From Desulforamulus putei DSM 12395 (GTDB lineage Bacteria; Bacillota; Desulfotomaculia; Desulfotomaculales; Desulfotomaculaceae), in NCBI RefSeq assembly GCF_900129195.1, contig NZ_FQUY01000012.1:1-64000 (forward strand): a stretch of 64,000 nt of DNA, given 5' to 3'. This document shows positions 4,838-53,372 of this stretch, piece by piece. The stretch's first letter is position 1; every line of letters starts with the position of its first letter. The notes below the pieces were generated by a model, which was given only the letters and a program-made list of their open reading frames with translations, did not search any database and was not told the origin of the DNA. Position numbers and translations under genes: made by a program.

Positions 4838-5135
4838 CATGACAGAGGACATCGAGAAACCCTGAGAAGGGGAAAAGTAATTTAGACCTGTTCTTTCAGA
4901 GAGCCGGTGGGTGGTGCGAACCGGTAGAGGGTTTAAGTGAATTCCTCCCCGGAGGGGATCCGCCGAAACACAGCGAGATAGACATAAGAGCTGCACAGTA
5001 GGTGGATACGGGAAGACACCCGTTATAACAAATGAGTGGGTCAGAATTTTTTCTGGCCAACAAGGGTGGCAACGCGGGAGAATAACCTCTCGTCCCTAAT
5101 GGACTGATCATCCGTTAGGGGCGGGAGGTTTTTTA
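4838..5135 (+). promoter_or_regulatory. T-box leader, probably tRNA-Ser responsive
   Basis: The leader has the T-box parts in order: the stem I segment AGAGAGCCGGTGG followed by TGGTGCGAACCGG, a specifier region GTGAATTCCTCCCCGGAG, the T-box itself AAGGGTGGCAACGCG (5062-5076), and a terminator whose long stem (5086-5128) ends in TTTTTT. Aligned with the Met T-box at 47038, where the specifier reads GAAC-ATG-G-CCCCGGAG, this one reads GAAT-TCC-T-CCCCGGAG, so the codon is UCC (serine). That fits the downstream serine biosynthesis genes. Uncharged tRNA-Ser should favour the antiterminator and switch the operon on. Confidence 0.92.
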
Positions 5136-5182
5136 TATTTCCCCCCCGGCGGGTAAGAAACATTTTACTGGAGGGATTGTTC

Positions 5183-6340
5183 ATGATGCAGGACAAAAAG
5201 TATCTCTTAATTCCGGGACCTACACCCATTCCCCCCCGGGTGGCTGAGGCCATGTCACGGCCCATCATCGGGCACCGCAGCGCCGAGTTTCAGGCTGTGA
5301 TGGAACGGGTAACGGGCAAGCTGAAGAAAGTGTTCCAGACCGAAAACCATGTCTTTATCCAGGGCAGTTCCGGTACCGGTGCTCTGGAGGCCGCTGTGGC
5401 AAACCTGGTCAACCCCGGCGATAAGGTGCTGGCTTTATCCTGCGGTAAGTTTGGCGAGCGCTTTGCGGAACTGGCCAGGATTTACGGCGGCGAAGTAGAT
5501 TTTGTGGATTTCGGTTGGGGTTATGATATTGACCTGGATGTGGTGAAGAAAAAGCTGGATGCCGATCCGGACATAAAAGTGGTGCTGGCCACCCAAAATG
5601 AAACCTCCACCGGCGTGCAAAATGACATTGAGGGCTTGGGCAAACTGGTGGCCCGGTATGATGCGGTACTGGCGGTAGACGCTGTTAGCGGCCTGGCTGC
5701 CATCGACTTAAAGACCGATGAATGGCATGTGGATGTGGTGGTCAGCGGTTCCCAAAAGGCCTTGATGCTGCCGCCGGGCCTGGCTTTCATCAGTGTCAGC
5801 GACAAAGCCTGGAGGAAGATAGAACAAAATACCTCTCCCAAATATTATTTCGATTTGTTAAAGGCCCGCAAATCCATAGCCAAGTGGAATACCGCCTATA
5901 CCACCCCGGTTTCCATGGTTTACGGCCTGGAAGCCGCCCTGGACATGATCCTGGAAGAGGGTTTGGATAACGTTTTTGCCCGCCACAAACTGCTGGCCAA
6001 AGCCACCCGGGCCGCCGTGCAGGGCCTGGGGCTGGAGCTGCTGGCCCCGGATGAATGTGCATCCCAGGCCGTCACCGCGGTGCAGTCCCCCATGGTGGTG
6101 GATGCCGATACCCTGCGCAAGGTGCTGTTGAGAGACTACGGCGTAGCCTTTGCCGGTGGCCAGGACATCATGAAGGGCAAGATTTTCCGCATCGCCCACA
6201 TGGGTTATGCCGATAAAATGGATGTGATCATTGCCATCGCCGCCCTGGAAATGGCCCTGGGCAAATGTGGATATAAGGCGGAATTGGGCGCCGGTGTCAG
6301 AGAAGCTCAAATGGTATTTGTAGGAGGAGAGCACGCATGA
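5183..6340 (+). CDS. Class V aminotransferase (alanine--glyoxylate / serine--pyruvate type)
   Basis: The protein is a 385-residue PLP-dependent small-subunit aminotransferase of the family that includes alanine-glyoxylate transaminases. The family N-terminus LLIPGPTPIPPRV, GSSGTGALEAA (cofactor phosphate), AVDAVSGLA and the PLP lysine in SGSQKALMLPPG (about K192) are visible. Here it sits under a serine T-box and overlaps serA by four bases, so it probably transaminates 3-phosphohydroxypyruvate or a related hydroxypyruvate in serine synthesis, replacing a classical SerC. That role is inference from context. The ATG at 5183 follows GAGGG by 7 bases; a TTG at 5177 and an ATG at 5186 are alternatives. 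Confidence 0.92.
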   Translation: MMQDKKYLLIPGPTPIPPRVAEAMSRPIIGHRSAEFQAVMERVTGKLKKVFQTENHVFIQGSSGTGALEAAVANLVNPGDKVLALSCGKFGERFAELARIYGGEVDFVDFGWGYDIDLDVVKKKLDADPDIKVVLATQNETSTGVQNDIEGLGKLVARYDAVLAVDAVSGLAAIDLKTDEWHVDVVVSGSQKALMLPPGLAFISVSDKAWRKIEQNTSPKYYFDLLKARKSIAKWNTAYTTPVSMVYGLEAALDMILEEGLDNVFARHKLLAKATRAAVQGLGLELLAPDECASQAVTAVQSPMVVDADTLRKVLLRDYGVAFAGGQDIMKGKIFRIAHMGYADKMDVIIAIAALEMALGKCGYKAELGAGVREAQMVFVGGEHA

Positions 6341-32165: not shown

Positions 32166-32873
32166 ATGGGCAAACTAAAGCCACAAAAGGACTGGAGGTG
32201 GTTTACCATCTCGAAAAGAATTGTTGAAGCCTACGTTGGCGAATATGCCAGCGGCAAAAGCGAAGTGGCGGTAAACCGGGCCTTGGAACTGGCCAGGGCT
32301 GGCAGAAAGGTAAATCTGGTAGACCTGGACATTGTAGAGCCCTGTTATACACTGCGACCCATTAAAAAAGAATTGGAAGAAACCGGCATGACGGTGCTTG
32401 CCTGGGAAACCCGGGATACCGTCGGGTTAGGTGAGGCGGGTAATATTATTAAACCGGAATGCAGGTGGGCATTATACCGTGAGGGGGATGTGATTCTCGA
32501 TATCGGGTACGGTGTGGAAGGAGCCAAAACCCTGAACCTGTTGGAAGGTGTCGAGGAAACCCCGGAATTACAGGTCTTGGCAGTCATCAATGCGAAAAGG
32601 CCCATGACATCCACTGTAGAAGAGATTTTGGACTACATAAAGGAACTGGGCCCTGTTCACGGGCTGATCAACAACACCCATTTGGGTGATGAAACAACAC
32701 CGGACATTGTGCAAGAGGGTGCCCGGGTTGTCAGCGAAGTTTCCAACATTCTGGGAATCCCCGTGGTGGCCACCACCGCAGACCAGAAAGTGACGAAACA
32801 AATCGGTCCGCAAGATTGTATGGGTAATACCGTACGTCCCCTGGTTCGATACATGCCGCGCACATTCTGGTAG
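32166..32873 (+). CDS. P-loop ATPase-like protein encoded ahead of the 2-oxoacid oxidoreductase
   Basis: The protein is up to 235 residues and resembles CobQ/MinD-type P-loop proteins. It has a glycine-rich GEYASGKSEVAVNRAL nucleotide site, NLVDLDIVEP, and a late TTADQKVTKQIG. Its function is unknown; its location 87 bases before a 2-oxoacid:ferredoxin oxidoreductase suggests a maturation or regulatory role for that enzyme (inference). The start is uncertain. The ATG at 32166 has only a weak AGGA upstream. A perfect GGAGGTGG (32194-32201) precedes an in-frame ATC at 32208 and no canonical start codon lies near it, so a 221-residue protein starting at AUC is likely. Confidence 0.75.
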   Translation: MGKLKPQKDWRWFTISKRIVEAYVGEYASGKSEVAVNRALELARAGRKVNLVDLDIVEPCYTLRPIKKELEETGMTVLAWETRDTVGLGEAGNIIKPECRWALYREGDVILDIGYGVEGAKTLNLLEGVEETPELQVLAVINAKRPMTSTVEEILDYIKELGPVHGLINNTHLGDETTPDIVQEGARVVSEVSNILGIPVVATTADQKVTKQIGPQDCMGNTVRPLVRYMPRTFW

Positions 32874-42833: not shown

Positions 42834-43457
42834 GTGGGCAGCATATTCATCGTATTCGAAGGCGTGGATGGGTCGGGAAAAACCACCCAGCTCAACCTGT
42901 TAAATAAATATTTAATTCAAAAACAAATCCCCACTTATACCACCCGGGAACCGGGAGGCACTCCGGTGGGGGAGAAAATCCGGGAACTGCTGCTGGATCC
43001 AAACTTTTCCGAAATGCAGGGACGCACCGAGGCGTTGCTTTATGCCGCGGCCCGGGCCCAGTTGGTGGCTCAGGTGATCCGGCCCCGGTTGGAACAGGGC
43101 AGGGTGGTGCTGTGCGACCGCTACATTGACTCCAGCCTGGCCTACCAGGGTTATGGCAGAGGGATGGATACCGGTTTTTTGGCGAGCATTAATGAATTAG
43201 CCACGGGAGGTCTGTGGCCCAACCTGACCATCCTGTTGGATATACCTCCTCGGGAGGGTTTGGTTCGGTCCAGAAAGGACCGGCCGGCGGACAGGCTGGA
43301 AAATGAATCCCTGGAGTTTTATCAAAGGGTCCGCAACGGGTACCTGGCGTTAGCCCGACGGAACCCGGAGGCTTATCTGGTGCTGGACGCCCGGCGGTCC
43401 ATAGAGGAGCTCCATACCGTCATTTGCGGAGTGGTGGGTGGTTTAATCTGTGTATAA
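42834..43457 (+). CDS. tmk: Thymidylate kinase
   Basis: Tmk phosphorylates dTMP to dTDP. Visible motifs are the P-loop [12 protein letters not shown], the [16 protein letters not shown] (DRY) block and the lid RKDRPADR. The start is ambiguous. A strong GGAGGTGG (42830-42837) is 5 bases before an in-frame ATA at 42843, which would give the exact family start (M)FIVFEG. The GTG at 42834, used here as the conservative call, lies inside that ribosome site, and TTG codons at 42828 and 42801 have none. holB overlaps the stop by 8 bases. The gene order matches Bacillus. Confidence 0.95.
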
Positions 43458-50471: not shown

Positions 50472-50505
50472 GAAATCCCTGGCAGTGGTTTTCTGCCAGG
50501 GATTT
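50472..50505 (+). terminator. Hairpin after cobO
   Basis: AAATCCCTGGCAG pairs perfectly with CTGCCAGGGATTT across a TGGTTTT loop. The T-run after it is short (CCTC), so termination is likely but not certain. Confidence 0.6.
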
Positions 50506-50518
50506 CCTCGAGCAAAAG

Positions 50519-50575
50519 ACTCAAGAGAACCGTCCCCCTGAGTCCCAAAGAGAACCGTCCCCCTGAGTCCCAAGA
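50519..50575. repeat. Tandem direct repeat of a GAACCGTCCCC unit
   Basis: Two consecutive copies of AGAGAACCGTCCCCCTGAG plus TCCCAA stand directly before the cyclase ribosome site. The core is the reverse complement of the GGGACGGTTCT in the inverted repeat at 49728. Confidence 0.8.
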
Positions 50576-50590
50576 ACAGGAGGTAAAGCC

Positions 50591-51232
50591 ATAAAGATCC
50601 TCGACCTTACCCGCACCATCACCCCGGATATGCCGGTCTATCCCGGCACCAGGCCGCCGGCACTGATTGACGCCTGTGCGTTGGAAAGGGAGGGCTTCCG
50701 GGAAACCGAATTGAGAATGTTTTCCCACACCGGCACTCACATGGACAGTCCTGCGCACCTGTTTGCCGATGGTAAGACCCTGGATCAGTTTCCGGCGGAT
50801 TCCTTTTACGGTCCGGCCTTGGCGGTGGATGTGTCTGCCGTTAAAGGGCGGATTCAGCCCGAGGACTTGCTTCCCCATCAACAGGCGTTGCAGGTCGTTC
50901 AGTTTCTCATCCTTTATACCGGCTGGGAACATTTTTGGGGTCAGCAGGAGTATTTTCAAGGGTTCCCGGTCCTATCCCCGGCGGCGGCCCGCTGGCTAAC
51001 TCAGTTTAATCTCAAGGCCGTAGGGGTGGATGCCATTTCCGTTGATCCTGTGGAAGCGGCCTCCCCGCTGTTCATCCATAAAATTTTCCTTGGCCAAGAG
51101 ATCTTGCTGATAGAAAATCTCTGCAATATCCAACCCTTGATTGGCCGAAACTTTACTCTTTGCTGCCTGCCGTTGAAGACCCGCCGGGCAGACGGCGCAC
51201 CGGCCAGGGCGGTTGCCATTGAACGCGTATAA
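50591..51232 (+). CDS. Cyclase / kynurenine formamidase-like hydrolase, apparent ATA start
   Basis: The 213-residue protein belongs to the metal-dependent cyclase family (PF04199 type) that includes arylformamidases. The metal motif His46-x-GTH(50)-x-Asp52-x-Pro-x-His56 is intact (HTGTHMDSPAH). The substrate is unknown. AGGAGGT (50579-50585) stands 5 bases before an in-frame ATA at 50591 that begins the family-typical KILDLTRTITPDMPVYPG. There is an in-frame stop at 50564 and no ATG, GTG or TTG between. The first canonical start (ATG 50630) lacks a ribosome site and would delete the conserved N-terminal strand. I therefore place the start at ATA. Confidence 0.82.
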   Translation: MKILDLTRTITPDMPVYPGTRPPALIDACALEREGFRETELRMFSHTGTHMDSPAHLFADGKTLDQFPADSFYGPALAVDVSAVKGRIQPEDLLPHQQALQVVQFLILYTGWEHFWGQQEYFQGFPVLSPAAARWLTQFNLKAVGVDAISVDPVEAASPLFIHKIFLGQEILLIENLCNIQPLIGRNFTLCCLPLKTRRADGAPARAVAIERV

Positions 51233-51278
51233 AAAGAGGAAGAACCTCAAGGCTTTTTCTGAGGTTCCTCCTCTTTTT
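51231..51278. terminator. Bidirectional terminator between the cyclase and SPOCS genes
   Basis: AAAAAGAGGAAGAACCTCA pairs with TGAGGTTCCTCCTCTTTTT. The A-rich and T-rich arms make it a terminator in both directions. Confidence 0.88.
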
Positions 51279-51284
51279 ATTTTA

Positions 51285-52535: not shown

Positions 52536-53372
52536 ATCGATATACGGATTTGTTTGATACGGCAGGACAAGGCGTGTCGGCTCCTCTTAGGGGTATTATT
52601 AAGTTTTGCGGCCCTTCTTTTTTACTGCCTCATCTGGGGCAAACACCTGGTGATCTCTGTGGACGGCAGGGAAATCCCACTGCTTCAATTCCGGGGCACG
52701 GTGGCGGATGCATTGGGGAAGGCCGGAGTAACTTTAAGAGAAGCAGATATTGTGGAGCCTTCCCCGGGCTCCCGGGTGGTTGATGACCAGAGGATTAAAA
52801 TATCCCGGGTGACCACCGAGGATATCACCGATCCGCAATTTATTCCCTTCCGGGTGGAGAGAAAAGCGGACCGTACACTGGCTCCCGGCCAACAAAAGGT
52901 AATCCGGTACGGGAGTTACGGATTAAGTCGTAATTATGTCCGGGTCACCTACCAGGATGGTAAGGAAGTAAAACGACAGGTCATGGGCAAAGAGGTGGTC
53001 AGGAAGCCGCAGCCCATGGTGGTGGCCTGTGGCCCCAACTTTGCGGTATCCCGGGGCGGCAAGCTCAGGGGAGCCGTCCGGACCAATTTTACATTGGAAA
53101 AGAGCGGCAAAGTTATGACCGCTGTGTCCACCGCTTATACCCACACCGGCCACCGTATGGCCACGGGGCTTTACCCCTATGAAGGCGTGGTATCCGTAGA
53201 CCCCCGGGTGATTCCCCTGGGTACAAAGCTATATGTCGAAAATTATGGTTATGCCGTTGCTGCGGATACGGGCGGCGGCATAAAAGGCAACCGTATCGAC
53301 GTTTTTTTCAACACCTACCAACAGGCCATAAGCTGGGGTAGGCGCACGGTCAAGGTCCATATCCTTGAATAA
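52536..53372 (+). CDS. YabE-like 3D domain cell-wall protein (DUF348-G5-3D)
   Basis: The 278-residue protein has a membrane anchor or signal helix (about 17-33), a DUF348 repeat (VISVDGREIPLLQFRGTVADAL), a G5 domain (about 95-160) and a C-terminal 3D domain (VSVDPRVIPLGTKLYVENYG, AADTGGGIKGNRIDVFF) with the three conserved aspartates of resuscitation-promoting-factor-like peptidoglycan lytic enzymes. It matches Bacillus YabE, which also follows the metS-tatD pair. GAGGGGG is 8 bases before an in-frame ATC at 52536, while the first canonical start (TTG 52554) has no ribosome site, so AUC initiation is likely here. Confidence 0.88.
   Translation: MDIRICLIRQDKACRLLLGVLLSFAALLFYCLIWGKHLVISVDGREIPLLQFRGTVADALGKAGVTLREADIVEPSPGSRVVDDQRIKISRVTTEDITDPQFIPFRVERKADRTLAPGQQKVIRYGSYGLSRNYVRVTYQDGKEVKRQVMGKEVVRKPQPMVVACGPNFAVSRGGKLRGAVRTNFTLEKSGKVMTAVSTAYTHTGHRMATGLYPYEGVVSVDPRVIPLGTKLYVENYGYAVAADTGGGIKGNRIDVFFNTYQQAISWGRRTVKVHILE

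Follow-up and report, generated by a model that had tools for sequence, protein, structure and literature searches.

The AUU start codon of infC serves the feedback control of IF3 (autoregulation), and we know of no such IF3-type feedback for the cyclase gene described here. What this gene has in common with infC of E. coli and other bacteria is a near-cognate start codon, mismatched at the third base and placed behind a good Shine-Dalgarno (SD) sequence. In S. aureus, AUA starts in infC, ccpN and citZ and an AUU start in cvfC1 have been mapped by Ribo-Ret, with ccpN, citZ (AUA) and cvfC1 (AUU) giving about 10% of the yield from AUG and ccpN up to 30% in rich medium; extended SD sequences were noted at the conserved sites (PMC13009471). 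The cyclase likewise has AUA behind a strong, extended SD in a Gram-positive, but the S. aureus starts were shown by experiment whereas that of the cyclase is predicted here from sequence, and the non-canonical start of ccpN is conserved to B. subtilis whereas the cyclase codon varies (ATA, TTG, CTG). The cyclase is moreover a metabolic hydrolase and not a known regulator.

In L. monocytogenes, infC starts with ATT, rnhC with ATC, and rsbW has ATA and ATT variants; translation of a reporter follows the order ATG > ATA > ATT, and a non-canonical start is fixed in six of 2265 core genes (PMC13068326). This is again AUA/AUC/AUU initiation in the Bacillota, but the variants of rsbW were products of selection in the laboratory. 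In vitro, the third is the only codon base at which IF3 tolerates non-Watson–Crick pairing, and even there the weaker pairs are disfavoured (PMC10158994). The original prediction described AUA starts as very rarely documented. AUA is a rare start codon, but AUA and AUU starts have been demonstrated experimentally in S. aureus (PMC13009471) and Listeria (PMC13068326), and in all nine of nine Desulforamulus genomes infC starts with ATT behind a strong SD (in this genome at G000:C23:173710). An apparently intact gene with AUA as its only sensible start adds a good new example to a class that experiments have demonstrated in other bacteria. We believe, with a probability of roughly 85%, that the locus is best explained by translation of the cyclase from AUA 50591 with the ordinary initiator tRNA (fMet), helped by the strong SD.

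The cyclase gene and the position of its start

The window, by which we mean the whole stretch of DNA analysed (64,000 nucleotides), belongs to a 3.1 Mb draft assembly, in 65 contigs, of a genome of the genus Desulforamulus; its features are collected in Table 1. Read directly, the AGGAGGT is followed by AAAGCC, that is by six bases and not by the five originally counted, then by the ATA and by KILDLTRTITPDMPVYPG. Two other parts of the prediction were borne out: the in-frame TGA is found at 50564, with the codons GTC CCA AGA ACA GGA GGT AAA GCC between it and the ATA, and a scan of 50501–50640 showed all three frames to be free of ATG, GTG and TTG from 50501 to 50629, in agreement with the claim that none precedes 50630. 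The TGA is carried by the second copy of the 25-nt repeat AAGAGAACCGTCCCCCTGAGTCCCA, which lies just 5′ of the SD, and the stretch 50523–50572 has 24 more matches elsewhere in the genome.

Table 1. Features of the cyclase locus and of the other putative near-cognate starts in the window.
Feature	Position	Strand	Remarks
P-loop (ParA/CbiA-like) ATPase gene, putative ATC start	32208..32873	+	Pfam matches weak, below cut-off
Thymidylate kinase gene (tmk), putative ATA start	42843..43457	+	G002 orthologue also ATA
Dispersed 25-nt genomic repeat (AAGAGAACCGTCCCCCTGAGTCCCA), two copies in tandem	50523..50572	.	Copies identical
In-frame TGA stop	50564..50566	+	Shuts the frame upstream of ATA; 221-aa open frame from stop to stop
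Shine-Dalgarno AGGAGGT	50578..50584	+	Start codon 7 bases after last G of GGAGG; score −14.8
ATA, putative start codon	50591..50593	+	Aligns with ATG/GTG/TTG/CTG of orthologues and with Met1 of PDB 8hmo
Cyclase-family (PF04199) metal-dependent hydrolase gene, 213 aa	50591..51232	+	Metal-site motif HTGTHMDSPAH
First downstream canonical codon, ATG (codon 14)	50630..50632	+	Without Shine-Dalgarno (SD score 0)
G5/3D-domain protein gene, putative ATC start	52536..53372	+	ATG in G004; in G002 an ATA close to this position, preceded by an SD

The gene had been named a cyclase, and the match to Pfam PF04199 confirms this (E = 6.4e-32; 111.2 bits against a curated cut-off of 23.1). It has the family profile and the conserved metal-site motif in common with PDB 8hmo, 1r61 and 4cz1, which are PF04199 cyclase/kynurenine formamidase-like hydrolases, but falls below the NCBIfam cut-off of the arylformamidase equivalog TIGR03035 (87.4 against 223.05 bits). 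Alignment shows that the motif is retained, and the frame is intact over 213 codons. Comparison with both syntenic orthologues (G002 and G004) gave a dN of about 0.30, a dS of 1.4–2.1 and a dN/dS of about 0.14–0.23, the exact value of which is soft because dS is near saturation. The three-way identities are 62.7, 61.2 and 61.7%, so the divergence of this copy from its two orthologues does not exceed that between the two. Judged by these substitutions, the gene is under purifying selection. No viral homologues were found. After the gene, 51229–51280 holds a long inverted repeat, recognised by the match of this stretch to its reverse complement; it is probably a terminator that serves the converging gene as well.

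The position of the start is set by the homologues, as the alignment proposed with the original prediction now makes clear: ATG, GTG, TTG or CTG stands at exactly the codon of the ATA. Of the 80 homologues taken from other genomes, 67 have ATG at the aligned codon, three GTG and two TTG, which makes 72/80 with a canonical start; among the other eight are matches that do not have the start in their first column. In the syntenic Desulforamulus orthologues, which are 61–63% identical, it is TTG (G002) and CTG (G004). In both 8hmo and 1r61 the alignment begins with position 1 of the family profile, which in 8hmo falls on Met1. Codons 2–13 differ from those of the relatives by synonymous and conservative changes, among others. 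In the AlphaFold model (mean pLDDT 87.6, and 91 over residues 1–10 at the N-terminus) the first strand is formed by residues 2–5. A start at ATG 50630 would remove this strand, and with no other start available, the proposal that AUA alone keeps the conserved first strand stands.

The ATA itself is not kept between species. The three Desulforamulus orthologues group together and start with ATA, TTG and CTG, none of them with ATG. Low expression may have been selected for, or the strength of the start may be under little constraint; the pattern agrees with both. The cyclase, whose counterparts in sister species start at a canonical codon or at CTG, provides a natural experiment in which the codon shifts to AUA and the SD stays strong.

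On a simple stacking scale, the SD pairing score at ATA 50591 is −14.8, a value equalled or bettered at 0.14% of random positions and near the strong end of the ordinary genes of the same genome (5th percentile −15.4, median −10.2). The genome-wide count of SD sites followed by ATA that had been suggested as a check gave no excess in this genome: the motif GGAGGT N5–8 ATAAA has 10 matches, against 14 for a reversed control. Since the motif alone is not enriched, the case rests on the coincidence of the SD with the homology-defined start. When orthologous start positions were compared in 231 cases, an SD-supported canonical start of a relative faced AUA, AUC or AUU in this genome in the cyclase alone; the 15 other non-canonical codons among the 231 mostly reflect small shifts of the alignment, with a canonical start close by.

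Proposed initiation at AUA and the alternatives

How the cyclase would be initiated can be proposed in some detail. The near-perfect SD, at good spacing and with no competing start codon, would position the 30S subunit at the AUA, where the first two bases would pair normally with the CAU anticodon of the fMet initiator tRNA and the third would be mismatched. The first residue of the protein should then still be formyl-methionine, and the yield would probably be several-fold below that from AUG. A search with one anticodon-stem pattern found two initiator tRNA genes; in both the anticodon is CAU, its stem has three G-C pairs, and C1/A72 is present. As these initiator tRNAs are ordinary, the simplest account is standard fMet-tRNA with a third-base mismatch, enabled by strong SD pairing. 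That AUA is read by a special initiator tRNA of altered anticodon is barely credible: such a tRNA might have escaped a search limited to a single pattern, but both tRNAs found are CAU, and the non-canonical starts of the genome vary (ATA, ATC, ATT), which one altered anticodon would not explain.

The main alternative to an AUA start is a one-base sequencing or assembly error in an ordinary gene whose true codon is ATG. The codon is known from a single draft assembly of 65 contigs, in which one wrong base would make ATG into ATA, and it lies about 20 bases 3′ of the tandem dispersed repeat, where assembly is harder. We nevertheless consider such an error unlikely, as the frame is intact through all 213 codons, the syntenic orthologues also lack an ATG start (TTG, CTG), and comparable AUA and AUC starts occur in G002, which is a one-contig assembly. 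Also improbable, and slightly more so, is that the start codon was recently lost, leaving the gene silent or making from the ATG at codon 14 only a truncated and probably non-functional protein. This lineage shows no acceleration of its evolution, the metal-site motif has been kept, and the SD is intact at the proper distance from the ATA; the ATG at 50630 is in frame and expression of the cyclase is only predicted, but that ATG is without an SD and a start there deletes the first strand. Initiation at ATC 50597, two codons 3′ of the ATA, is very improbable. This codon is in frame and could be a near-cognate start, but it lies 13 bases past the last G of GGAGG, scores −6.2 at allowed spacing against −14.8, and is not where the homologues start, which is at codon 50591.

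Putative near-cognate starts in the window and in the genus

The three further cases originally predicted in the window (32208, 42843 and 52536) exist as described and stand up to a comparison of their start codons in three species (this genome, G002 and G004). At 32208, the ATPase gene has ATC also in G002, where no canonical start is left after an upstream in-frame TAA; in G004 the corresponding codon is ATT, and an ATG stands two codons before it; in this genome an in-frame ATG with a weaker SD lies upstream at 32166. In tmk, the in-frame GTG at 42834 falls inside the SD, and G004 starts at an ATG four codons upstream. The N-termini of the gene at 52536 are divergent in G002 and G004. The cyclase had been ranked as the clearest of the four, which is correct in that it has no in-frame canonical codon between the upstream stop and codon 14, but in comparative support it is surpassed by tmk and the ATPase because these have AUA or AUC in a second species as well. 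Four of the six clear AUA/AUC/AUU starts in 464 kb of the genome lie within the 64-kb window, in one 20-kb stretch (32208–52536), a clustering that was noticed post hoc (binomial p = 0.004). ATA candidates at 5108–6340 of the window, C23:87232 and C23:23098 were rejected, each being followed by an ATG that either has an SD or coincides with the start aligned in orthologues.

In our survey of such starts, a codon qualified if it had a strong SD and a stop no more than 25 codons upstream, and if no canonical codon had SD support. With this genome (G000), G002 and G004 pooled, AUA/AUC/AUU qualify in 17/168 cases and other codons in 51/1684 (Fisher p = 6e-5; p = 0.001 without the three infC genes). 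The corresponding counts are 4/97 and 31/1135 in four outgroup samples (p = 0.29), and 2/48 and 8/408 in G006 of the same genus (p = 0.28). AUA/AUC/AUU starts may thus be unusually common in this genus, but the excess is suggestive only, because the pooled genomes have a common ancestry, the hits include false ones and the outgroups are represented by small samples. An apparent excess of ATC/ATT/ATA in a blind scan of 400 kb consisted mostly of ordinary ATG starts adjoining ATA or ATC at slightly different spacing, and that count was therefore discarded; a lax test for "no canonical start" was dropped for too low power.

It is conceivable, though we hold it to be somewhat doubtful, that part of Desulforamulus uses AUA/AUC/AUU as ordinary starts in about 1–2% of its genes, the third base drifting between species with the start position kept, as though the third position were less strictly discriminated. 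This would be several-fold more than the six fixed non-canonical starts in 2265 core genes of Listeria, and a genus with 1–2% of such starts, if it truly carries them, would be a useful place to study IF3 proofreading. Common gene finders accept only ATG, GTG and TTG, so that genes of this kind are annotated without their true N-terminus or missed; even thymidylate kinase would get a wrong start in the annotation of this genome.

Further candidates for such starts were seen outside the window, in genes named here from reading their protein sequences rather than from a profile search. A MerR-like regulator (G000:C23:107728) opens with ATT directly after a stop (TAA), behind GGGGAGGTGATTAA. A probable riboflavin synthase (G002:C1 near 912000) has an ATC start, and hypE (G004:C1 near 2393000) an ATT start, in each case two codons after an in-frame stop.
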